From an uncultured Geobacteraceae bacterium (GTDB lineage: Bacteria > Desulfobacterota > Desulfuromonadia > Geobacterales > Pseudopelobacteraceae): a DNA stretch of 34,314 bases. Positions within the stretch are counted from its first letter, which is position 1; each line of letters opens with the position of its first letter. A program made the position numbers and the translations under genes. Below, one piece after another: positions 170 to 33,987 of this stretch. Location: positions 1 to 34,314 of the forward strand of contig CAJBRY010000313.1 of NCBI GenBank assembly GCA_903958085.1, written 5' to 3'. The notes below the pieces were generated by a model that saw only the letters and a list, made by a program, of their open reading frames with translations, was not told the DNA's origin and did not search any database.

Positions 170-512
170 GTATTCTGTTATATTCATTGAATCTCTCGCC
201 AACAACCATAAGATACTTTAGTCCAACTATATTAGCGCTTTAGGCTAACTCTTTTATAAATGCCTCCAAGCGATTTTTTCTGACATATGCTCCATCCAAA
301 ATTGTTTTCTCTCTCTCGGTTCAATACTACTATGCAATTGTTGTAAATGGTTACAAGAGGCTTTTGTAAAACAAAATATTTCCCCGTGTCATGCCTTCAT
401 CAACGTATTTTTCGGTTTATCCCATCAGTACGCTTTTTGTCGCAAATCAACTGCAATACCAGAAAATCGCGTTATGCTCTTTACATATTCCAACATTTTA
501 GGAGGTGTAATC

Positions 513-1172
513 ATGTTGAAACGCACACTATCGTCCCTATGGCTGATGTTTTTTGTCACCACAATACTTTCTGCCACGGTTGCGGCGCAGAATCGCACGG
601 AAGCGTTTGCTGCCGCCCGGACGCTGTTTGAACAGGGACTGCTCGGTTCAAAAAAGGACAATGAGCAGGCGGCAGAACTGTTCAAGGCTTTGTCAGATCA
701 GGAGCACGGTAATCCGCTCTATCTTGCCTATTACGGCAGCGCCACCACCGTCAAATCCCGTGATGCCTTCTTCCCCTGGAGCAAACTGAAGCTGGGCGAA
801 CAGGGGTTGGATATCATCGATAAGGCATTGAAGATGGTTACCGCGGAGCACGATACGACCATGATCAAAGGGGTACCGGTCAGTGTCGGGACCAGGCTGG
901 TTGCGGTAAGTACCTTCCTGCAAATGCCTGACAAATATTTCCACCGTTTTGTAGCCGGAAAAAGCCTGCTGACAGAAACCATGAACAGCCGTGCTTTTGC
1001 CGCTGCACCTGCGCATATCAAGGCTGCCTTTCATGTCCAGGCTGCAACTGTCGCCCGGACTGACAAACAGAGTACCGAGGAGATACGCCAGCTTAAACAG
1101 GCGCAGGAGCTGGATCCGAAAGGCAAAGCGGCCCCAGCGGTTCATGCTCGGTTGAAGGAGTTGGGGCAATGA
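513..1172 (+). CDS. Exported TPR-like/hypothetical periplasmic protein, first gene of an ABC operon
   Basis: ATG at 513 preceded by AGGAGGTG; signal peptide MLKRTLSSLWLMFFVTTILSATVAAQ; Ala-rich helical repeats; stop overlaps the next start (ATGA). Confidence 0.75.
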   Translation: MLKRTLSSLWLMFFVTTILSATVAAQNRTEAFAAARTLFEQGLLGSKKDNEQAAELFKALSDQEHGNPLYLAYYGSATTVKSRDAFFPWSKLKLGEQGLDIIDKALKMVTAEHDTTMIKGVPVSVGTRLVAVSTFLQMPDKYFHRFVAGKSLLTETMNSRAFAAAPAHIKAAFHVQAATVARTDKQSTEEIRQLKQAQELDPKGKAAPAVHARLKELGQ

Positions 1173-1864
1173 GTGCCACGGCAGCCACAGCAGACGCCAC
1201 GTTGCTTTGTCTGAGCGGCGTGACGAAAACCTACCGGATGGGTGAAGCCACTGTACCGGCGCTGCGCGAGGTGTCTCTGGCCATTCAACCGGGTGAGTTT
1301 ACGGCGCTGATGGGGTCGTCCGGCAGCGGCAAGAGCACCATACTCAATATCTGTGGCCTGGTTGATCGCCCTGACTGCGGTACGGTGGAGCTTGACGGGA
1401 AGGATACGGGAACGCTGGACGAACAGGCGCTGACGCTGGTGCGGCGGGAAAACATCGGCTTTATTTTTCAGGGGTTCAACCTGGTGCCGGTCATGACCAC
1501 CTTTGAAAATGTCGAGTATCCGCTGTTTCTCTCCGGAGTCCCGGCAGGTGAGCGGCGGCAACGGGTCAGCGAGATGCTGACGAAAGTCGGGCTGGCTGAT
1601 CTGGAACGGCGGCGCCCCGATGAACTGTCCGGCGGACAGCGCCAGCGGGTAGCCATTGCACGGGCGCTGGTGAAGATGCCAAAGCTGATTATTGCCGATG
1701 AACCGACTGCCAATCTGGACAGCGCCACATCCAACCAGATCGTCGGCGTCATGCACGAACTGGGGCGGATGATCGGCACAACTTTCCTGATCGCCACCCA
1801 CGACCCGCGCCTGACTGTGTTGTGCGACCGGGTCATCACCATGAATGACGGGGTGCTGCAATGA
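1169..1864 (+). CDS. ABC transporter ATP-binding protein, LolD/MacB type
   Basis: Walker A GSSGSGKST, signature LSGGQRQRVAIARAL, Walker B LIIADEPTANLD. Confidence 0.95.
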   Translation: MSATAATADATLLCLSGVTKTYRMGEATVPALREVSLAIQPGEFTALMGSSGSGKSTILNICGLVDRPDCGTVELDGKDTGTLDEQALTLVRRENIGFIFQGFNLVPVMTTFENVEYPLFLSGVPAGERRQRVSEMLTKVGLADLERRRPDELSGGQRQRVAIARALVKMPKLIIADEPTANLDSATSNQIVGVMHELGRMIGTTFLIATHDPRLTVLCDRVITMNDGVLQ

Positions 1865-3081
1865 AATGGCTCATTTTTGCCGGTAAAAATATCCTGCGTA
1901 ACCGGCGCAGGTCACTGATCACGGTCCTGATCACCGCCGTTGGTACCGCCGGAATCCTCATCAGCGGAGGTTTTGCCCTGTTTACCTATGAATCGCTGCA
2001 GGAAATGGCGGCCCGGGACAGCGGACACCTCATTGTGGCGCACAAAAATTTCTTCACCAGTGACGAAGATACCCCCATGCAGTACGGACTTGATAACGCT
2101 GCCGAAATGAGAAAGCGTCTGGAGCAGGATAGCGGTGTGCGTATGGCTCTGCCGCGGGTGCAGTTTTCAGGCCTGCTCAGCAATGGCGATAAGTCGTCCG
2201 TATTCGTTGGCATGGGGGTTGATCCTGCCGGTGAATTCTACACCAAGGGACCGGCGCTGACAGTTGCTTCCGGAACTACCCTGAGTGCTGCACCGAAAGC
2301 AGACGCTCCGGCGGAAATCATGCTCGGCACGGAACTGGCCCGGCAGATGAAGGCGGTGCCGGGTACTCTACTGACGCTGCTCTCAACCACCACCAACGGC
2401 AGTCTCAATGCGTTGGATGTTACCGTGTGCGGCACGGTCAGCACCGGCGTTCCCGATGTGGATAAGCGGCTGGTGTACGTGAATATTGCCACGGCGCAGC
2501 ACCTGTTGGTGACCGACAGGGTGAGTACGCTGTCGGTGTACCTGAAGGATACGGGGCAGACCGATGTAATGCGGACTCAGGTGGCAGCTCAGTTTCCACT
2601 GCAGACGGTGCAGACCTGGCGTGATCAGGCCTATTATTATGAGGCGGTGCGCAGCCTTTATAACCGGATTTTCGGCCTGCTGGGAATTGTCATTGTTGTG
2701 ATGGTCGGCTTTGCCATATCAAACACCCTGACCATGGCGGTGGTGGAGCGGACCCGGGAAATCGGCACTCTGCGGGCTCTCGGTACACTGCCGCAGCAGA
2801 TTGTCGGGGTATTTGTGTTGGAAGGGATGATCCTCGGTGGGGCCGGCTCGCTCTGCGGTATGCTGACGGCTTTGTCGACAACATTTATATTCCTTTTTGC
2901 CGATTTCCAGATGCCCCCGCCGCCGGGACGCTCGGTCGGCTATCCGCTGCAGATTAATTTTTCACCCTCACTCTATTTGCTGACGACACTGGTTCTGGTG
3001 TTGCTCTCAGTTACCGCCGCCTGGTTTGTCAGCAGAAAGATGGCGGCAAAACCGATCGTGGAGGCATTGACCCATGTGTAA
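1861..3081 (+). CDS. ABC transporter permease, FtsX/MacB/LolC-E type
   Basis: N-terminal TM, large periplasmic domain, three C-terminal TMs with VVERTREIGTLRALGT motif; ATGA overlap with the ATPase gene. Confidence 0.93.
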   Translation: MKWLIFAGKNILRNRRRSLITVLITAVGTAGILISGGFALFTYESLQEMAARDSGHLIVAHKNFFTSDEDTPMQYGLDNAAEMRKRLEQDSGVRMALPRVQFSGLLSNGDKSSVFVGMGVDPAGEFYTKGPALTVASGTTLSAAPKADAPAEIMLGTELARQMKAVPGTLLTLLSTTTNGSLNALDVTVCGTVSTGVPDVDKRLVYVNIATAQHLLVTDRVSTLSVYLKDTGQTDVMRTQVAAQFPLQTVQTWRDQAYYYEAVRSLYNRIFGLLGIVIVVMVGFAISNTLTMAVVERTREIGTLRALGTLPQQIVGVFVLEGMILGGAGSLCGMLTALSTTFIFLFADFQMPPPPGRSVGYPLQINFSPSLYLLTTLVLVLLSVTAAWFVSRKMAAKPIVEALTHV

Positions 3082-3808
3082 ATATATCGTGACGTTCATC
3101 ATTGTCTGTTTCACCGTTCTGCCGGCACGGGCCGGAGAAGTTACCAAATACCTCAAAAAAGCCGACAGCTATCGCCTGGAAGCGAATGCCATGCAGGTTG
3201 AGACGGAGGTAAAGCTGTTCAAATCGGGTAAACTTGATAAAGAACGGCTCTATACCGTGTATCTCAAAAATGGCCGTCGCTCGCTGGTTTTGATGCAGTC
3301 TGCCGGAGAAAAGGGGCAGAAGGTGCTGATGCTGGGCGACGACTTCTGGCAGATCATGCCGCAGAGTCAGCGACCGATCCGCATTACTCCGATGCAGAAG
3401 CTGCTTGGGGATGCCTCGGTTGGCGACATCGCCACCATGAACTGGAGTGAGGATTACGATGGCAGCGTTACCGGTGAGGTGGATGTGGACGGGACACCGT
3501 GTCTGCATCTAAGCCTCACAGCCAAAAACAAAGGGGTGAGTTATAAACGGATCGAACTGTTTATCGCCAAAAACGATTACCGGCCGGTCAAGGCCAATCT
3601 GTATGTCGCTTCCGACAAACTGGCAAAACAGGCACGCTTTACTGTGGCATCGGTTAAGGGGCGCCAGCAGGTAACTGCCATGGCTATCAAGGACCAGATA
3701 CAGACCGGTCGGGAAACGGTGATCAACTATCTGTCCAGAAAAGCGCGCAGCGTGCCGGATGAGTATTACAATCCGATGTTTCTGACGCGTAATGATTTGA
3801 AGGAGTGA
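3074..3808 (+). CDS. Outer membrane lipoprotein-sorting protein-like (LolA-like fold)
   Basis: Signal peptide; core pattern YLKNGRRSLVLMQSAGEKGQKVLMLGDDFWQIMPQSQRPIRITPMQKLLGDASVGDIATMNW is typical of the LolA-like family. Confidence 0.85.
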   Translation: MCKYIVTFIIVCFTVLPARAGEVTKYLKKADSYRLEANAMQVETEVKLFKSGKLDKERLYTVYLKNGRRSLVLMQSAGEKGQKVLMLGDDFWQIMPQSQRPIRITPMQKLLGDASVGDIATMNWSEDYDGSVTGEVDVDGTPCLHLSLTAKNKGVSYKRIELFIAKNDYRPVKANLYVASDKLAKQARFTVASVKGRQQVTAMAIKDQIQTGRETVINYLSRKARSVPDEYYNPMFLTRNDLKE

Positions 3809-5040
3809 GAGGCAAAACTGCAATAACTGTGGTGTGCGCTGCCGGTCTGTTCATTTCACCAGTTGCTGCTTCCGATGTGTCCATCAAAGCCTGGGTCATT
3901 CCGGAGTACCACACTCTCAACTCCTCAAGCCCGTTTGCCCCTGGCGCTGGTCAGAGCGATTTCGGCAGAAACCGGACTAGGGAAGAGGTGGAACTGCGCG
4001 CCAAAGCATGGGATGTCAACCTGGTGGCAACGGCTGCCACTACCGCCATGGAGGGAAAAGAGCCGGAGCAAACTGCCATACTCAACGAACTGAATTACGA
4101 TTTTTCCGTGGCAGGAGAGCGGTTTTCCCTGGGCAAAAAAATTGTCAACTGGGATGTGGGGTTCGGATTCCGGCCGCTTGACCTGCTGCAGCAGGAAAAC
4201 CGGCGCTCCATTGCAGCAACAACGTTAGAGGGGATACCGTACCTGTCGTGGGAAAAATTCAGCGGAGATTCCGCCTGGATGCTGATTTACGTCAATCCGG
4301 TTCAAGGCAGGGCCACAGTAGCAAAAAATGACGAGTCGGTGGCACTGAAATATTATCTGCGTAATGCTGCCACCGACTGGCATGCCGTGATGCGTCTGAG
4401 CGAGCGGCATCATATTGAGACAGGTGCTGCCGTCAGCAGCGTACCTCTGGAGAGCATGGAGGTCCACGGTTCACTGCTGTATCAGCAGCGTTTTGAACAG
4501 CAGTATAATTCGCTGACAGGATCATCCGGAGTGCATTTGAACAGCAGCGATCCGATGCAACTCAATACCCGCAGGCATGGCGTCAAGGCGCTGGCCGGTT
4601 TTACCCTTACCGGTGAAGCGGGGTTTTCACTTCTTGGCGAAGCGTGGTATGACGCCACATCGTACAGTGCGGCCGATTGGCGCGATGTGAAACAACTTGT
4701 CGAGCAACAGGCTGCGCTGCTCAGTCAGGGTGCTCCTGTGGCGGCGGTCAATGGCAATATCGCCTACAGTCTGCGTTACTTCGAACGACCGAACCTGCTG
4801 AAGGAAAACCTACTGCTGCGCCTGTCACATCGCCGTGAGGGGGAAAACTGGGAACCGGCGCTTGATATTCTCTGTACTCCGGTGGATGCCGGTCTGGTTG
4901 CCACGGCATCTCTTGCCTATATTGGAAACCATTTCCGGGTAGACAGCGGCGTTCGTCAATATGGCGGAGCCAGTGGCTCAGCCTACCGGATGCTGCCGGA
5001 GGAGCGGATTGTGTATCTTGCCCTGCAGGGGTTCTGGTAG
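3805..5040 (+). CDS. Putative outer membrane beta-barrel protein, last gene of the ABC/LolA-like operon
   Basis: GTG start overlapping the upstream TGA (GTGA); signal peptide ending in VAAS; alternating aromatic/polar strands; C-terminal ...VYLALQGFW ends in an aromatic residue. Confidence 0.72.
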   Translation: MRGKTAITVVCAAGLFISPVAASDVSIKAWVIPEYHTLNSSSPFAPGAGQSDFGRNRTREEVELRAKAWDVNLVATAATTAMEGKEPEQTAILNELNYDFSVAGERFSLGKKIVNWDVGFGFRPLDLLQQENRRSIAATTLEGIPYLSWEKFSGDSAWMLIYVNPVQGRATVAKNDESVALKYYLRNAATDWHAVMRLSERHHIETGAAVSSVPLESMEVHGSLLYQQRFEQQYNSLTGSSGVHLNSSDPMQLNTRRHGVKALAGFTLTGEAGFSLLGEAWYDATSYSAADWRDVKQLVEQQAALLSQGAPVAAVNGNIAYSLRYFERPNLLKENLLLRLSHRREGENWEPALDILCTPVDAGLVATASLAYIGNHFRVDSGVRQYGGASGSAYRMLPEERIVYLALQGFW

Positions 5041-5090
5041 TAACCGGCTGGAATTAATTATGCTCCACACGCTTTAAAATTGCTGCATTT

Positions 5091-5165
5091 GGCTTCGACT
5101 CCGCTCAGTCAACGCTCGTTCCCTGAACGGAGCGATGCGGTACGCGTGTCGAGCTGTCGAGGGGA
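5091..5165. repeat. Degraded imperfect palindromic intergenic repeat
   Basis: GGCTTCGACTCCGCTCAGTCAACGCTCGTTCCCTGAACGGAGCGATGC; GACTCCGCTCAG and CTGAACGGAGCG are inverted copies matching at 10 of 12 positions. Confidence 0.5.
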
Positions 5166-5311
5166 CGTTTATGTCTGCGCGTTGACATTGTCTCCGGATG
5201 TCTCATGATATAAAATGTTGTCATTGAATACCGCCAAGGAGAGTGGCATGGTGTGAATTGTTCGTCTTGTTGTATGTTAAATTAATTGCAACCTGCCGGA
5301 GTGAGGACACA

Positions 5312-6043
5312 ATGAGTGGAAAATTTTCTGAAAATTATCTGACGAATCTCATAGGTGCGCTGTTTGCGATAGTGGCGGCTCTCTGCTGCTGGCTGCTGTT
5401 CTCCATTTTCAGCAACCATTACGTTGCCGGCAGGTGGCTTGCAGTATCGGCTGTTGTTGATTCTGCCGGAGTAAAAAGTAGTCACAGCAGGAGCATGTCC
5501 CGCTCTCTACCCACCTTCAATTCCAGGGTTATGACGTCTTACCGGTATCAGTTCAAAGGCGTAATGTACACCGGCGAGCGGGTTGACTTTAGCTTCGGCA
5601 GCGACAATTTTGCAGATGCCCGTCGCGCCCGCCAGATAGATCTATTGCGTAGTGGCTCACCAATGGTTTTCGTGGATCCGGACAATCCGTCCAATAGCGT
5701 GCTGGATCGTTCACTGCCGATTGAACAGATTAACTTTGCCATTATTTTTCTGTTTTTCCCCTGTGGACTTGGTACGGCAACCGTACTTGGCTGGCTGGCA
5801 AAACTTGCCGCGCTCGCAGACTGGGAATGGCCGGGCAGGTTCATGATGCCGATGATTGGCCTCGTCCACAGTCTGCCGGCTTTTTATGCTCCTTTTTTTG
5901 CTCCAGCCGATCTCGGGCTTTTTGGTTGGTTGCTGGTACTGATGGCCGGTAGCGTGTTTCTCATCAGCGTACGGGCCATCTGGCGAAGGATTCAGGATCC
6001 GACCATCGGTGCACTCCTGATGACCGGACGATTTCAGCGGTAA
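5312..6043 (+). CDS. DUF3592-like membrane protein
   Basis: ATG at 5312 (MSGKFSENYLTNLIGALFAI); TM - central domain with YRYQFKGVMYTGERV...VFVDPDNPSNSVLDR - TMs. Confidence 0.75.
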   Translation: MSGKFSENYLTNLIGALFAIVAALCCWLLFSIFSNHYVAGRWLAVSAVVDSAGVKSSHSRSMSRSLPTFNSRVMTSYRYQFKGVMYTGERVDFSFGSDNFADARRARQIDLLRSGSPMVFVDPDNPSNSVLDRSLPIEQINFAIIFLFFPCGLGTATVLGWLAKLAALADWEWPGRFMMPMIGLVHSLPAFYAPFFAPADLGLFGWLLVLMAGSVFLISVRAIWRRIQDPTIGALLMTGRFQR

Positions 6044-6165
6044 TTTGTAACACTTCCGGCCCACCTGTTCTGACTTTTGCCGATGCTGGAATCCTTATTC
6101 TTTGCGGCAAATAGAAACAGCTGTTGTCTCAGTATAAGCGGCCAATTTGTGGAGGAGGGCATAGT

Positions 6166-6582
6166 TTGATTCCACCAATTTTACGTCTGACATTGCTACT
6201 AGCGGGAATTTCATTATTATGTGGATGCAGCAACGGATTGCCGTCTGATCTGGTAGGACACTTGGCCAATCGTGGCATTCAGGTCGCCCCGGCGAAAGTC
6301 CACGCCTCTTCATCTTCCCGAACCGGCAATATTCTAGTGCCATACTCTACAGAAACTGCCACCAACATCATAACAACCTTCAAGCTGCAGAGAATTCAAC
6401 CCGAGGACCGGCAATGGAGTTGGGCGATCAGCCGAGTGGGAGAACTTTCTTCAGTGAAAAAGTTATGGGGCCTGTCAGGAAGGCCGACACAATTCAAACT
6501 CGGGAGCGGCAGACAATTTGAATCTCTCCGGGTCTTATTCCCCGAAGCTTGCTTCGATGAGAGAAAACAATTACTGACGTGA
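6166..6582 (+). CDS. Hypothetical lipoprotein with a C-terminus running into a repeat element
   Basis: TTG start with GGAGGAGGG upstream; lipobox ISLLCGC; final residues PEACFDERKQLLT are encoded across the first CTTG hairpin. Confidence 0.55.
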   Translation: MIPPILRLTLLLAGISLLCGCSNGLPSDLVGHLANRGIQVAPAKVHASSSSRTGNILVPYSTETATNIITTFKLQRIQPEDRQWSWAISRVGELSSVKKLWGLSGRPTQFKLGSGRQFESLRVLFPEACFDERKQLLT

Positions 6583-6604
6583 TACCCCGTAGCTTGCTGC
6601 GGGG
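6535..6604. repeat. Two tandem CTTG-loop hairpins (REP-like or terminator-like)
   Basis: CGAAGCTTGCTTCG at 6543-6556 and CCCCGTAGCTTGCTGCGGGG at 6585-6604; both have GC-CTTG-type cores. Confidence 0.65.
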
Positions 6605-6824
6605 TTGTTCATTACTTTTTCCTGATTTTAACTGACGATGGTTTCATGTATTTACTGGCGGAGTATGCCTATGGATAACGAGTAAAAAAGGATCAGAGCA
6701 CATATTAACGTATGTCGTTTTCTATGGATTCAACTCAGGATTCCAGATTTCAGCAAAAATTATGTAACCGGATTTCTTTGAAGCATTATCCTTGCAGTCA
6801 ATTGCCATTTCAGAGGTGATACTC

Positions 6825-7301
6825 ATGCATAGTCAATTAAATCTCCAGAGCAAGCCTGAACTTAATCTCCTCATGTCCATTGGCGTACTACTGATGGGTG
6901 CGCCCCTGTTCTGGCTGGGCCGTACGTATACCGGATATGGCGACAACAGATTTGCGGCGTTTGCCTTGGGATGCCTGCTACTTATCCTTGGCCTGATGGC
7001 ACTGGTAATGGGTGAAACGCGTAGCATCGAACTTGATGTGGAGCGGAAGCGAATCGTGCTTGATATCAAGCGGCGAATTGGTGGCTGCCGACAGGTCGTC
7101 ATTCCGTTTCAGGCGATAGAGAAATTCACTATTCTACGCATGGGAACATCCAGCAATCTCTCGGTCTACTATGATCTTGGTGTCGTACAGCGTTCCGGGA
7201 AAACCGTCTACCTGTTCGGCGGTTGTGCTTTCGATGGTCGGATGAGTAGCGAATGGATTGAGGGTCTCAGAATACAATTTGAACAGGTAGTTTTCATGTG
7301 A
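6825..7301 (+). CDS. Hypothetical membrane protein: two TMs plus a beta-rich cytoplasmic domain
   Basis: ATG at 6825 with AGAGGTG upstream; two hydrophobic helices then RSIELDVERKRIVLDIKRR... Confidence 0.65.
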   Translation: MHSQLNLQSKPELNLLMSIGVLLMGAPLFWLGRTYTGYGDNRFAAFALGCLLLILGLMALVMGETRSIELDVERKRIVLDIKRRIGGCRQVVIPFQAIEKFTILRMGTSSNLSVYYDLGVVQRSGKTVYLFGGCAFDGRMSSEWIEGLRIQFEQVVFM

Positions 7302-7414
7302 AGGGGATTTTTGACGGTTAAGCCCTTGCCAAGAGGCAAAGCGGAAAAACGAATGATCCAACATGAGAGATACACCTGACCTAAATACGGTCACAAACAA
7401 TTAAGGAGTCAAAT

Positions 7415-8191
7415 ATGATGAATATAGACTATGCATTTGCAAAGAAATGCGATGAATTGTCTATAAGGAAATTGTTGTCGGATTCTCAGCTACCGATAGA
7501 GGGAGTTGCGACTTTTCTAGAACACTACATAGTTGCCTCGTTAGAACAGGAGGTTATCGGAGTTATTGGAGTTGAAATTTACGGCAATATCGGTTTACTT
7601 CGTTCATTAGCAGTTAAGAGCGGACTTCAAGGAAAAACTATAGGAAAGGAGCTTTTCTCGCGAATAATGGCATTTGCTCATAATCAACACATGAACGAAC
7701 TATATTTGCTTACAACAACTGCCGAGATTTTTTTTGCTAAACGAGGATTCCATAAAATTGACAGGGAGACTGTCCCAGAGACTCTGAAAGAATCTATAGA
7801 ATTCAAAAACCTTTGCCCAGAATCAGCTATCTGTATGAAATTGCAACTAAACCAACATGCAGTCTATTTTCCGCAAGGAGCATTACCGCTAAAGGAGGAT
7901 GTACCAGGTGCATTTATGTGGGGAGTCGCTCTTGAGAAAACGCTTCTAACCTACTTTGAGGTTTTATCAAATTGCCGTTTTGAACATCATACTCATGAAA
8001 GTGAACAGATCACTATGGTTCTTGAAGGTGAGTTGTTTTTTGAAATTGCTAACGACACATTTTGTATTAAAAAAGGTGAAGTCATCGCAATTCCTTCAAA
8101 TATTCCACATGCTGTGTATACGAAAGATAAAGAGGTGAAAGCAATTGATGCATGGTCACCGGTAATGCCTCAGTATGTAAGAAAAGTTTAA
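7415..8191 (+). CDS. ArsN2-like GNAT acetyltransferase fused to a C-terminal cupin domain
   Basis: N-terminal GNAT with GLLRSLAVKSGLQGKTIGKELF, LYLLTTTAEIFFAKRGFHKIDRE and LCPESAICMK, as in ArsN2-type proteins; C-terminal cupin with FEHHTHESEQITMVLEGELFFEI...IPSNIPHAV; RBS AAGGAG. Confidence 0.82.
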   Translation: MMNIDYAFAKKCDELSIRKLLSDSQLPIEGVATFLEHYIVASLEQEVIGVIGVEIYGNIGLLRSLAVKSGLQGKTIGKELFSRIMAFAHNQHMNELYLLTTTAEIFFAKRGFHKIDRETVPETLKESIEFKNLCPESAICMKLQLNQHAVYFPQGALPLKEDVPGAFMWGVALEKTLLTYFEVLSNCRFEHHTHESEQITMVLEGELFFEIANDTFCIKKGEVIAIPSNIPHAVYTKDKEVKAIDAWSPVMPQYVRKV

Positions 8192-8243
8192 GCGATATAA
8201 CCAAGTAGAAACATGAATATGCTCCGCTGAAAGGTACCACACC

Positions 8244-8825
8244 ATGAACCGCCTCATCGCACGTTTTTTCAATGAAGGCCTTGATGCCTCACTCAGTGTG
8301 GCTTCCAAAGAAACAGTGATTCAAGAACAGAATGGTACATTGTACATAACGTCCAAGCAGTCATCCATGCGATGCTACTTCGCGGCACTTTTTGCTTTGC
8401 CATGCCTGTATTACCTGTATTACAGCTTCACACACCCTGGCATCACCACTGTCGCAATCGCTTTGATCGTCTGCCCGATATTAATGTTCACTGCGTTACT
8501 GCTCTGGAGGGTGGAGGCCAGTAAGGTTATTTACAATAAGCAACGACTGATAACCAGTAGACTCCGTTTTTTCTCATACATGAAGGAGGTTACGGAGCCA
8601 CTGGCAATGAATGGCACCATAGCTCTGACCTGGCGTTGGGAAGCAGGAGGTTCTGAAACAACCGGTTTTAATGTGTACACCATTACCGGCACACCGGGAA
8701 AGGGCCTTCTGTTTTCAACCTTGAACAATTATGTTGAGGCGCGTGCCTTTGCCGAGCGCCTTGCGATTTTCCTCGGGTTTACACTGGAAGACAGAGTGCC
8801 ACCGGAACATCGTAATGATCGTTGA
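8244..8825 (+). CDS. Hypothetical membrane protein: two TMs plus a soluble domain
   Basis: ORF with RBS-like AAGGT; two adjacent TMs followed by a PH-like beta-rich tail. Confidence 0.65.
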   Translation: MNRLIARFFNEGLDASLSVASKETVIQEQNGTLYITSKQSSMRCYFAALFALPCLYYLYYSFTHPGITTVAIALIVCPILMFTALLLWRVEASKVIYNKQRLITSRLRFFSYMKEVTEPLAMNGTIALTWRWEAGGSETTGFNVYTITGTPGKGLLFSTLNNYVEARAFAERLAIFLGFTLEDRVPPEHRNDR

Positions 8826-8956
8826 CAAATCAAACCGATGCCTTATCAGATAGATGATTCAAGCTAAACGGCAGCTGGACGATGCATCAGACGGCTGGCT
8901 TGCGGGCATGGAGTGGCGACCGAAACCGGAAGGCCTTGAATAATAGAGGAAACTAC

Positions 8957-10051
8957 ATGACAATGACAAAAATACATCTGCCACCCTCCGCGTGTGGACG
9001 CTTGAAAAACGGATCAGTTCCACCTCCACTGAAAAACATCGTGCGGGATCTCGTAATCGTCATTACCCTGATGTTCATCCTGGCAGGGTTACTTAACTTT
9101 GCACTTGGGGGGGGATATCTCTTCAACCTCCGCTACTGCCTTGCTATCGGGCTGTCAATCACCCTGTCGTCCCATTTTCTGATGAAATGGCGTAATGCCC
9201 AGAATATCCACTGGCAGACATCGCTGGCAGCCATACTGATCGGAACTACCGTCGGGATTATCATCGGTACTCTCGCCAACGGTATCAATCCGGTATCTTT
9301 GATTGAAAAATATCCCGGTTTGCTGCTTGCCCTGCTGGTGGTCTCGCTGATCTGCGGGCCGGCAATTTCCTACTTTTTCCACTCTCAGGCTGCCATGTCA
9401 GAAGCCGCAGCTGCCTTGCGTCAGGAAGAGCTTGAGCGAATCTCGTACGAACAACGGCTGACCGAGGCTAATTTCAAAATTCTGCAGGCCCAGATAGAGC
9501 CTCATTTTCTCTTCAATACCCTTTCCAACGTACTCAGTCTTATTCAGACACAGCCTGAAAAGGCCGGGCAGATGCTGAGCGATTTTACCGCTTACCTGCG
9601 TGCTTCGCTTCAGCAGACTCGTTGTGACAGAATCCGGCTTGAAGACGAGCTTGCTACGGTACGTTCGTTTCTCGACATCATGGCGGTGCGTATGGGCAAC
9701 AGGCTGAGCTATCGTATCGAAATCCAGCCTGAATTGCTGTCAGTACAGGTGCCGCCGCTGCTCCTTCAGCCGCTGGTGGAAAATGCTGTGGAGCATGGCA
9801 TCGATCCGAAGCCGGAGGGTGGAGATATCATCATCATAGCCTATCTGGCTGCAGATATGCTGCAGATTGAAGTCAGCGACAGCGGCGACGGTATTACATC
9901 ATCAAGTCCGGTGGGTGTCGGTATGAACAACATCCGCGAGCGCCTTAACCTGCTCTACAACGGGGAGGCGTCATTTCAAGTGCTGCCGAATAGTCCGCAC
10001 GGGACGACCATACGCCTGATCATTCCTTTACATAGGGAGGGAAAACAATGA
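8957..10051 (+). CDS. Sensor histidine kinase, LytS/YehU type
   Basis: Multi-TM N-terminus; QIEPHFLFNTLSNVLSLI phosphoacceptor motif; C-terminal HATPase LLLQPLVENAVEHGI...GVGMNNIRERL. In-frame ATG at 8957 preferred over 8882. Confidence 0.93.
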   Translation: MTMTKIHLPPSACGRLKNGSVPPPLKNIVRDLVIVITLMFILAGLLNFALGGGYLFNLRYCLAIGLSITLSSHFLMKWRNAQNIHWQTSLAAILIGTTVGIIIGTLANGINPVSLIEKYPGLLLALLVVSLICGPAISYFFHSQAAMSEAAAALRQEELERISYEQRLTEANFKILQAQIEPHFLFNTLSNVLSLIQTQPEKAGQMLSDFTAYLRASLQQTRCDRIRLEDELATVRSFLDIMAVRMGNRLSYRIEIQPELLSVQVPPLLLQPLVENAVEHGIDPKPEGGDIIIIAYLAADMLQIEVSDSGDGITSSSPVGVGMNNIRERLNLLYNGEASFQVLPNSPHGTTIRLIIPLHREGKQ

Positions 10052-10812
10052 TCAACAGAGGAGAAAAACGCCCCACCGCCATACTCGTTGATGACGAACC
10101 AAACCTCTGTGCCCTGCTGAAGCGTCAGCTCACGGCCTCCTGGCCGGAACTGATCATTGCGGCGGAGGCACACAATGCTGCCGATGCGCTTTCGATGATA
10201 GATGCGCTGCAACCGGAGATAGCCTTTCTCGACATCCGCATGCCGGGCATGAGCGGGCTTGAACTGGCTACCCGGGTCGGTACGGCATGCCATGTTGTTT
10301 TTGTCACCGCCTATGATCAGTATGCGGTCCAGGCATTTGAAAACGCTGCGGTGGATTACCTGCTTAAACCGGTATCTGAGGAGCGCCTGCGTACTACAGT
10401 TGCACGCCTTCAGGGCCGTCTCTGTCAGTCTCCTCCCGATTTATCACCGCTGATTGCACAACTGACGGAACAGATCCGTCCTAAGAAACAGTATCTTCAG
10501 TGGCTGCAGGTTTCTCAGCATAACGATATCGAATTAGTACCGGTGGACGAGGTTGATTATTTCCAGGCATCTGACAAATACACTCTGGTGGTCAATCGCA
10601 AGTCAGAGCGGGTCATTCGCACATCGCTTAAAGAGCTGGAGGATGAACTGGATCCAGAGCGCTTCTGGCGGATCCACCGCAATGCCATCGTCCGGGTGGC
10701 GGCGATCGCCAGGGTTACCCGCGACTTCGGCGGCTTGACTTTGCAACTGCATAACCACGAAAAAACATTGTCGGTCGGTCGCAGCTATACCCATCTGTTC
10801 CGGCAGATGTAA
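10048..10812 (+). CDS. LytTR-family response regulator
   Basis: Receiver AILVDDEPN...AFLDIRMPGMSGLEL...VVFVTAYDQYAV...DYLLKPV; LytTR domain VDYFQASDKYTLVV...FWRIHRNAIV; ATGA overlap with the kinase gene. Confidence 0.95.
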   Translation: MINRGEKRPTAILVDDEPNLCALLKRQLTASWPELIIAAEAHNAADALSMIDALQPEIAFLDIRMPGMSGLELATRVGTACHVVFVTAYDQYAVQAFENAAVDYLLKPVSEERLRTTVARLQGRLCQSPPDLSPLIAQLTEQIRPKKQYLQWLQVSQHNDIELVPVDEVDYFQASDKYTLVVNRKSERVIRTSLKELEDELDPERFWRIHRNAIVRVAAIARVTRDFGGLTLQLHNHEKTLSVGRSYTHLFRQM

Positions 10813-31317: not shown

Positions 31318-33987
31318 GTGCCTGGAAAGCAAAGCCGTCTGTTCGAATTCATATCAAAGTTTCCACGACTGATTTTGACTGTATCTGTCGTTCTCTCTGC
31401 CATTTCTGTCATTTACACGGCGACAAACATGAAGTTTCTGACCGGCCGCGATGATCTGATGCCGAGAAACGCAAGCTTCCAGGTTGATTATCGTGCCTAT
31501 CGCGCGGAATTTGGCGATCAGGAGGAAATCGTAGCCGTAATCGAGTCGGATGATGCAGCAAAATCAACCCGGGCAGCAGACGCACTTTATGCCGCGCTCA
31601 AAAAGGAACAGGGAGTTTTCAGGGATGTTTTCTATCCAGGCGGACTTCCCTTTTTTCGCCGTAACGGCCTGTTGTTTATGCCGCTGGACGACATCAGGAA
31701 ACTTGGAAAAACTTTAACAATGGCTGCTCCTGTTCTCAAGGACCTTGCCGCCGCTCCATCCGTTCAGACACTATTTAGCAGCCTTACGAATCAGATTGAC
31801 AATTATCTGAAATCTGAAGATTCAACATCTCTGGCAAGCCTCACCTTTATGCTTTCAACTCTGGATCAGGGATTCAAGGCATTTGATGGCAAAAGCAGCG
31901 CACTTTCCATGGACTCTTTTCTTAAAGGTAGCGGTGGAAGTTCTCCGTCCATGCTTGAGAGCGCCGGAAAACAGCAGATCTTAACAATGCTGCCGATTAA
32001 GTCTGAAGGGAGTTTTGTCGCTTCAGAAAAGTCGATAAAGAGAGCCAAAGAGGCACTCTCTGAAATCCTCAATAAACCGGAGTTCAAAGGAGTCACTGGC
32101 GGACTTACCGGCGTACCTGTCCTTGAATATGAAGAGATGGACTCCAGTCAGCGCGACATGAGCGTTGCGACCGTCCTGTCTCTCATCCTCACCGTTATTC
32201 TACTGCTTTTCGCCTTTCGAGGCCTCCTGAATGTTGTATCCGCAATGGTTACTCTTATAGTTGCAATTTCCCTTTCTTTGGGCTTTGCAACCATTGCTGT
32301 CGGGCATCTGAATATCCTCTCAATGGTCTTTGCAGTTATGCTCATCGGGCTTGGAATTGAATACAGCATCCAGGTAGTCCTCCGCTATCAGGAAGAGCTT
32401 ACTTTGCATAAGAATCATAAATCAGCACTCGAAACTTCTCTGAATGTAAATATCAGCTCTATCATTATGGCCGCTGCCACAACAGCTCTGGCTTTTGTAA
32501 CTTTTGTGCTCACCGACTTTAAAGGTATAGCTGAGCTCGGTATTATCGCTGCGGGTGGAATTGTGATTTGTGTCATTTCCACGTTCACTGTTCTGCCAGC
32601 CATGCTGATTCTGATGGAGAAATTCAGAAAGATCTCTTCGCCGCCTGCCAGAATTGATCAATATGAAGGAGAAACAATACCTTCGAAAAGTTTCATTTAT
32701 GGCATTTTTTCAAAACCAATAACTATTATCGCGACAACGATGATTCTTTCATTGGCCTGTCTCTACCCCACTTTTTCCATGCGTTTTGATTACAACCTTA
32801 TGAACCTCCAGGCCAAGGGGCTGCAATCGGTTGAATATGCCTACAAACTGATGCGAAGCAAGGAAAACTCCGGCTATTTTGCAGTAGTAACGGCAAAGGA
32901 CGTCGCTGAGGCTGAAATGCTTTCAAAACAGCTGGAAAAACTTCCTTCCGTCGATCATGTTGTCAGCAAACTGACTTTTGTTCCGGAACAGCAGAGAGAA
33001 AAACTTACAGAATTGGCGGCACTCCGCAACATTATGGATGAGATCAAACCTGTGCCGTATGAAGAGAACCTTCAGGTTATGGCGCTTCCAGCCGTTTTTG
33101 AAAAATTTCGTGACCGGGTGGAGAGGTTATATAATGAACTCAATCGACGTAAGGCTCCTGAAGCAAAGCCAGTGGGCGCTTTTCTGGCAACTCTGGATGG
33201 TTTTTTCAAAACTCTCGAAGCGGAAAAAGATAAGAATGCTCTCGGAATGCTGCGAAATTTCCAGGGTGGAATGTTTGCAGAACTACCGGCTAAACTTTTA
33301 TTGCTGAAAGAGAGTTTCGGAGCTGTGGAAATATCTGAGAGTGACGTACCTGTCGAACTTAAGCAGCGTTTTATAGGTAAAAACGGTAAATTGCTTCTAC
33401 AGGTGGCAGCAAAGAAGGAAATTTTCGAGAGGGAACCGTTGGAAGAATTCGTTATGCAGGTCAAGAGTGTAGCACCCAACGCCACCGGAGAACCGGTTAT
33501 GGTTTATGAGTCGCTTACAGTTCTGCGAGATGCCTATTTAAAAGCTTTCATATACGCATTTGTCGGCATAATAATTCTACTGCTGATAAATTTCAGAAGC
33601 ATCCGTTACGCACTGCTCGGCACGCTTCCTCTGGCTGTCGGCCTGTTGCTTATGATTGGCGGTATGCGTTTGATCGGAATATGCTTCAATTCCGCAAATA
33701 TTATTGTACTTCCGCTGATTTTGGGCATTGGAATTGACTCTGCAATATACATTTTAAACAGGTATCGCCTGGGAGAAGAAACCCCTGGAGAAGTGGCAGT
33801 CAGCAGCGCCGGAGTCGGTGTTTTTCTGAATGCCCTGACTATCCTGTTCAGCTTTGGCGCTCTAATGGTTGCGCATCATCAGGGGGTGTTCAGCATCGGC
33901 GCGGTAATGTCACTGGGGATGGCAGCAAGTGTGGCGTCCTTTTTGATTTTTCTGCCTGCACTGCTTTCTCTTTGGGGAAAGCGCTGA
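31318..33987 (+). CDS. MMPL/RND-family transporter
   Basis: About 890 aa, two repeats of TM1 + periplasmic domain + TM bundle; VFAVMLIGLGIEYSIQVVLRY and LPLILGIGIDSAIYILNRYR motifs; GTG start with AAAGGAG. Confidence 0.92.
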   Translation: MPGKQSRLFEFISKFPRLILTVSVVLSAISVIYTATNMKFLTGRDDLMPRNASFQVDYRAYRAEFGDQEEIVAVIESDDAAKSTRAADALYAALKKEQGVFRDVFYPGGLPFFRRNGLLFMPLDDIRKLGKTLTMAAPVLKDLAAAPSVQTLFSSLTNQIDNYLKSEDSTSLASLTFMLSTLDQGFKAFDGKSSALSMDSFLKGSGGSSPSMLESAGKQQILTMLPIKSEGSFVASEKSIKRAKEALSEILNKPEFKGVTGGLTGVPVLEYEEMDSSQRDMSVATVLSLILTVILLLFAFRGLLNVVSAMVTLIVAISLSLGFATIAVGHLNILSMVFAVMLIGLGIEYSIQVVLRYQEELTLHKNHKSALETSLNVNISSIIMAAATTALAFVTFVLTDFKGIAELGIIAAGGIVICVISTFTVLPAMLILMEKFRKISSPPARIDQYEGETIPSKSFIYGIFSKPITIIATTMILSLACLYPTFSMRFDYNLMNLQAKGLQSVEYAYKLMRSKENSGYFAVVTAKDVAEAEMLSKQLEKLPSVDHVVSKLTFVPEQQREKLTELAALRNIMDEIKPVPYEENLQVMALPAVFEKFRDRVERLYNELNRRKAPEAKPVGAFLATLDGFFKTLEAEKDKNALGMLRNFQGGMFAELPAKLLLLKESFGAVEISESDVPVELKQRFIGKNGKLLLQVAAKKEIFEREPLEEFVMQVKSVAPNATGEPVMVYESLTVLRDAYLKAFIYAFVGIIILLLINFRSIRYALLGTLPLAVGLLLMIGGMRLIGICFNSANIIVLPLILGIGIDSAIYILNRYRLGEETPGEVAVSSAGVGVFLNALTILFSFGALMVAHHQGVFSIGAVMSLGMAASVASFLIFLPALLSLWGKR

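Follow-up and report, generated by a model that had tools for sequence, protein, structure and literature searches.

The described systems closest to the locus reported here carry substrates between the two membranes by different combinations of parts. AmeABCD of Castellaniella, with an RND motor, is needed for full monoterpene tolerance, which is reduced when ameABCD is deleted (PMC6394551), and the DUF1302/DUF1329 proteins of Pseudomonas putida (PP_0765, PP_0766, PP_2018 and PP_2019) are required for the use of Tween 20 (PMC10866462); these systems handle hydrophobic small molecules with an inner-membrane motor, a carrier of the LolA superfamily and an outer-membrane barrel. In the BBJ23-29 cluster of Borrelia the genes for a TPR protein, a MacB-like ATP-binding cassette (ABC) ATPase and permease, a LolA-like carrier and an outer-membrane barrel lie together (PMC13078400). 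The passage of lipids other than lipoproteins and lipopolysaccharide to the outer membrane, or across it, has long been a gap in understanding. Here we describe a locus on contig CAJBRY010000313.1 of an uncultured Geobacteraceae bacterium, order Geobacterales, which was analysed over its whole length of 34,314 nt (the window; all coordinates are window positions unless a locus is named). Five genes at 513–5040, a two-component gene pair downstream of them and a predicted operator look like an inducible route by which a fatty molecule, as its dedicated cargo, passes from the inner membrane to the outer one, and with a probability of about 60% we read them as an exporter of seven genes that regulates itself and carries a lipid or another acylated amphiphile. 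The locus is a compact candidate, open to testing, that encodes the motor, the carrier, the outer-membrane port and the inducer switch in one place.

A preliminary description had presented the five genes as a Lol-like trans-envelope operon, and all five open reading frames (ORFs) stand where it had placed them, with the same overlaps at their junctions (ATGA at 1169 and 1861, 8 bp at 3074–3081 and GTGA at 3805). The first gene starts with an ATG at 513 that has GGAGG 12 to 8 nt ahead of it (501–505); a longer first ORF from 474 is possible, and would place an extension ahead of the signal peptide. The families it had named were recovered by Pfam and NCBIfam for the ATPase (ABC_tran, 122.7 bits), the permease (FtsX and MacB_PCD, with 4 hydrophobic segments) and the carrier (LolA_like PF17131, 132.5 bits versus a cut-off of 30), and by structure prediction for the TPR protein and the barrel, which have no match in these two databases. 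The genes make up a coherent trans-envelope unit, as had been proposed, but the unit was drawn too short, since the two-component pair and the operator were overlooked and it consists of seven genes (Table 1). The LytS-type histidine kinase and the LytTR response regulator are encoded 3.8 kb downstream of the barrel gene, their His_kinase (PF06580), Response_reg and LytTR domains all score above cut-off, and they are orthologues of the pair found in the relatives. In the sister genome G111, in genome G051 and in most relatives the kinase orthologue is located directly 3' of the barrel gene; from its position in G111 the intervening stretch of the window is recognized as an insertion that lies outside the system, and nothing equivalent separates the two genes in G111, G051 or the Vibrio loci. 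At the edge of the insertion, just after the barrel gene, positions 5041–5170 resemble a repeated palindromic element (ttcgactccgctcag...ctgaacggagcg), and within the insertion a single ORF at 7415–8191 joins a GNAT acetyltransferase domain to a cupin domain. With 3 to 4 hydrophobic segments and without an evident periplasmic sensor domain, the kinase probably does its sensing inside the membrane or at its surface.

Table 1. Features of the seven-gene locus and its surroundings in the window
Feature	Position	Strand	Evidence
Predicted operator, TTYRTC boxes at 396–401 (TTCATC), 416–421 (TTTATC) and 436–441 (TTTGTC)	396..441	+	exact 20-bp phase
Exported TPR protein, 219 aa, signal peptide	513..1172	+	AlphaFold, Foldseek, family conservation
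ABC ATPase, LolD/MacB/FtsE type	1169..1864	+	ABC_tran; LolD equivalog score
FtsX/MacB-type permease, 4 transmembrane segments, large periplasmic domain	1861..3081	+	FtsX, MacB_PCD
Periplasmic LolA-like carrier, PF17131	3074..3808	+	Pfam match, solved relatives
18-strand outer-membrane barrel	3805..5040	+	AlphaFold, Foldseek, 45-sequence alignment
Insertion between barrel and kinase genes: DUF3592, GNAT-cupin, small uncharacterised ORFs	5243..8825	+	no counterpart in relatives
LytS-type histidine kinase	8882..10051	+	His_kinase PF06580, 81 bits
LytTR response regulator	10048..10812	+	Response_reg and LytTR, both above cut-off

A scan of 84,980 species genomes with the barrel as bait gave 80 loci, and 110 relatives were collected in all; a protein search showed remote homologues of the barrel on replicons of Vibrio and Plesiomonas, where the kinase and the LytTR regulator follow the barrel. 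The order TPR-ATPase-permease-LolA-barrel-kinase-LytTR regulator is found in 66 of the 85 loci with a barrel call, which is far beyond chance, seven more lack the TPR gene only, and at three loci the kinase/regulator pair is divergent from the operon. An independent search baited with the LolA-like protein gave close homologues (64–72%) in 8 plasmid records, the very ones in which the barrel is found, and its next match stood at 28–30%. The ABC and LolA-like genes do co-occur with the barrel; their rarity beside it would have told against the preliminary description. The pairwise distances of the seven families correlate with r = 0.88–0.97 (69 loci), or 0.78–0.96 in a diverse subset, and judged by these distances all seven have one common history. 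Within the order the barrel is present in 3 of 141 genomes, and it recurs in Vibrionaceae, Betaproteobacteria, Enterobacterales, Moritella and Ferrimonas; the system is accessory and has probably spread horizontally. Among 5,426 genomes no E. coli chromosome was found to carry the Enterobacter version in full. Three loci depart from the common pattern in other ways: the barrel gene of the complete genome G051 (L012) has a single in-frame TGA at 8817–8819 and is possibly decaying, though the remaining six genes of the locus are open; a Microbulbifer locus (L074, 4231–7200) has barrel, kinase and regulator with no ABC or LolA genes adjoining; and L026 shows the rearranged order barrel-kinase-regulator-TPR-ATPase. 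The operon is common in culturable Vibrionaceae. Genes VPA0015–VPA0021 of V. parahaemolyticus, which are in print only as a STRING network note (PMC10469919), have an ABC ATPase, a LolA-domain protein and a LytTR regulator at the spacing expected of this operon, and going by the locus numbers they are probably its orthologue. VP1498–VP1503 of the same species was ruled out because its regulator is of NtrC type, and for VC1517–VC1522, tried as the V. cholerae orthologue, one paper contains two of the gene names but gave nothing usable.

The three TTYRTC boxes ahead of the first gene are the sole match to such a triple on either strand of the window, none was seen in 100 dinucleotide shuffles, and the phased boxes align across the three Geobacterales promoters (window, G111 and G051). 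Of 82 upstream regions, 66 contain a relaxed pair, ACCRTTYRYY with a spacing of 20 bp, compared with 17 of 809 control windows taken from these loci, and pairs at other spacings are far fewer. The strict TTNRTC triple is found in 11 of 82 upstream regions versus 0 of 1589 controls. Scored alone, the box pair of the window is not significant (11.0, with 52 of 68,570 positions scoring as high), unlike the three-box phase, which is. The boxes fit the AlgR/LytTR consensus, published for AlgR as CCGTTCGTC (PMC4064291), and since similar phased boxes precede most of the relatives the operon is likely to be self-regulated, with the co-encoded LytTR regulator as the natural candidate ligand of the predicted boxes.

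AlphaFold models of the TPR protein and the barrel were built from alignments of relatives. The last ORF, previously a barrel candidate, is predicted as a confident 18-strand outer-membrane barrel with a predicted local distance difference test (pLDDT) of 91.6 and a predicted template modelling score (pTM) of 0.86, and its C-terminal residue is aromatic. The nearest solved folds in Foldseek are the alginate exporter AlgE and the Occ porins (best E 1.1e-10), and a PDB search with the barrel profile found no sequence relative. In an alignment of 45 sequences the most conserved segment is GK..xWxVGxGxRPLDL, at about residues 110–127 between strands 5 and 6, which from the order of elements in the model may line the lumen of the barrel; a helical hairpin is present at residues 289–327. 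The barrel of the window has no match to DUF1302 (PF06980), and 2 of its 45 relatives match weakly (best 0.0042); homology to DUF1302 is doubtful, as only a short motif is in common and the hhalign comparison over this motif is not significant (probability 4%, E 0.0097), and the carrier was rejected as a DUF1329 protein (PF07044), with no Pfam match and an hhalign probability of 0.2%, not significant. The TPR protein is all-helical in its model (pLDDT 92.3), with TPR proteins as the best Foldseek matches (weak E-values, probability about 1.0), and its family is kept in most of the related loci. In the periplasm it might bring the carrier and the membrane partners together, as a scaffold or as a docking factor.

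The ATPase scores 214.2 bits against the LolD equivalog TIGR02211, below the cut-off of 307.75, and the permease 119.9 bits against the LolC/LolE equivalog TIGR02212, below that of 362.45, and the operon is therefore not a Lol system by membership. LolF and LolE are the best solved relatives of the permease, which probably acts as a LolF-like homodimer because the operon has a single permease gene. The carrier matches PF17131 only and not LolA PF03548, and its solved relatives (3buu, 4z48, 9tp6 and 3bk5) belong to the LolA superfamily. Proteins of PF17131 are annotated as "outer membrane lipoprotein-sorting protein", a name that our results suggest to be misleading for this clade. No LolB match was obtained among the five ORFs with Pfam and NCBIfam; the barrel occupies that position and might replace LolB as acceptor. 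A housekeeping lolC/E is encoded elsewhere in the genome (454.6 bits), two LolA (PF03548) matches are located on another contig, and the operon is distinct from the housekeeping Lol system, as had been anticipated.

More distant loci bear on the substrate. Cousins beyond the seven-gene clade keep permease-LolA-barrel, those in Geobacterales ATPase-permease-LolA-barrel, and their barrels are homologous to that of the window (hhalign probability 98.8, E 1.1e-16). A cousin on an IncK2/Z plasmid of E. coli has the order TPR-ATPase-permease-LolA-barrel, where the TPR protein and the barrel score 45.8 and 46.3 bits against models from this family, and is flanked on one side by genes for a reductase, an acyl carrier protein, a FabA-like protein, a ketosynthase and a FeeM-type N-acyl amino acid synthase, and on the other by a crotonase gene. 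The cluster (L186 5879–17075, NZ_CP060058.1 11878–23074), apparently for fatty-acyl/N-acyl amino acid (FeeM) biosynthesis, occurs with the export cassette in 2 of 5,426 complete E. coli genomes, and it offers a direct route to a substrate. A Paraburkholderia cousin adjoins genes for a KR-domain protein, a monooxygenase and a phosphopantetheinyl transferase. As the cousins sit among fatty-acyl and polyketide enzymes, their neighbourhoods point to acyl lipids or amphiphiles as the substrate class and not to lipoproteins; of the lipid or lipoprotein route suggested before, the first half is thus favoured and the second is not. In the bacterial order of the window a PF17131 carrier and a barrel also occur with other motors, a double MacB permease of 850 aa (L163 3573–8252) and an MMPL protein (L162 6702–11047). 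The window itself encodes an MMPL/RND protein of 889 aa at 31318–33987; such motors are often paired with LolA-like proteins, and no LolA-like match is found near it in the contig.

Several points weigh against an acyl-lipid exporter. No biosynthetic gene adjoins the operon constantly across the seven-gene clade, where the recurrent neighbours are generic, for example LysR regulators, and the substrate class is therefore borrowed from distant cousins; species history in common accounts for part of the distance correlations; and the barrel resembles porins, a fold that is also able to import. The most probable alternative is a Lol paralogue dedicated to sorting a single lipoprotein or a small number of them, in which the barrel would take the place of LolB as acceptor or serve as a port to the surface, as proposed for Borrelia BBJ23-29. 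The LolF/LolE kinship of the permease, the LolA fold of the carrier and the part list shared with the Borrelia cluster agree with it, but we consider it unlikely, given that ATPase and permease fall under the Lol cut-offs, that no recurrent lipoprotein gene adjoins the operon in the related loci, that the cousins lie among fatty-acyl and polyketide enzymes, and that the Borrelia barrel is an Omp85 protein while Omp85 is absent among the 50 best fold matches of the present barrel. A detoxification or resistance module, in which the kinase would detect a membrane-active compound and the pump would clear it from the inner membrane, would fit a two-component system without evident sensor domain that is co-encoded with a MacB-fold transporter, the patchy and accessory distribution, and the monoterpene tolerance conferred by AmeABCD (PMC6394551). 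Related loci have no constant adjoining resistance gene, and a near-identical architecture inside a cluster of biosynthesis genes speaks for an endogenous product, in that case at least. Modules of the Bce type, the other model for such a role, are not known to have a carrier or a barrel, and we regard this explanation as quite improbable. An importer, whose porin-like barrel would admit hydrophobic compounds for the LolA-like protein to pass to the ABC complex, by analogy with growth of P. putida on Tween 20 (PMC10866462), is most improbable with the cousins embedded in biosynthesis clusters. To our knowledge, the MacB/LolCDE-fold (type VII) transporters characterised so far all export or extract.

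For the seven-gene exporter we infer the direction of transport, a substrate of lipid nature, each hand-off and positive autoregulation as follows. The LolF-like ABC complex would extract the substrate from the inner membrane and pass it to the periplasmic LolA-like protein, which would take it up in its half-barrel and ferry it to the 18-strand barrel, and the barrel would insert it into the outer membrane or release it through it, while the TPR protein would couple the carrier and the membrane partners. The membrane-embedded kinase might respond to the substrate, to membrane stress or to the activity of the transporter and phosphorylate the LytTR regulator, which would bind the three phased boxes and switch the operon on. 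Taken more widely, and tentatively, since we hold it at slightly less than even odds, the locus may stand for an undescribed proteobacterial family of inducible shuttles running from inner to outer membrane and made up of a LolF-like ABC extractor, a PF17131 carrier, an AlgE-like 18-strand barrel, a TPR coupler and a LytTR switch of its own, a family that moves a non-lipoprotein acyl lipid, probably an N-acyl amino acid in one cousin, to or across the outer membrane. If true, this would be an ABC-driven answer to acyl-lipid export in Gram-negative bacteria without a fixed tunnel such as TolC.

A search of the available literature found no paper describing the seven-gene system, and the set appears not to have been described as a system before. 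With Lol (LolABCDE, LolF) it has in common a LolD-like ATPase, a LolF/LolE-like permease fold and a half-barrel carrier of the LolA type; it differs in its scores under the LolD and LolC/E cut-offs, in a carrier of PF17131 and not PF03548, in a barrel in place of LolB, in the added TPR protein and two-component system, and in being accessory beside a separate housekeeping Lol. The Borrelia cluster is alike by part list, but its barrel is an Omp85 and not porin/AlgE-like, and its seven genes include no two-component system. MacAB-TolC has a MacB-fold permease and ATPase as well, whereas the present genes are split and the carrier is of the shuttle type; neither a membrane fusion protein nor a TolC-type channel was found among the seven proteins by family and fold searches. 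From AlgZR and other LytTR systems, which also have a LytS-type kinase, a LytTR regulator and an operator fitting the same consensus, the locus is set apart by a predicted operator of three boxes in 20-bp phase ahead of a transporter operon. AmeABCD and the DUF1302/DUF1329/RND systems use an RND (HAE3/MMPL) motor instead of an ABC ATPase with an FtsX permease and lack the TPR/LytTR module. The operon is thus Lol-like in its motor and carrier, and AmeABCD-like in that it ends at a barrel.

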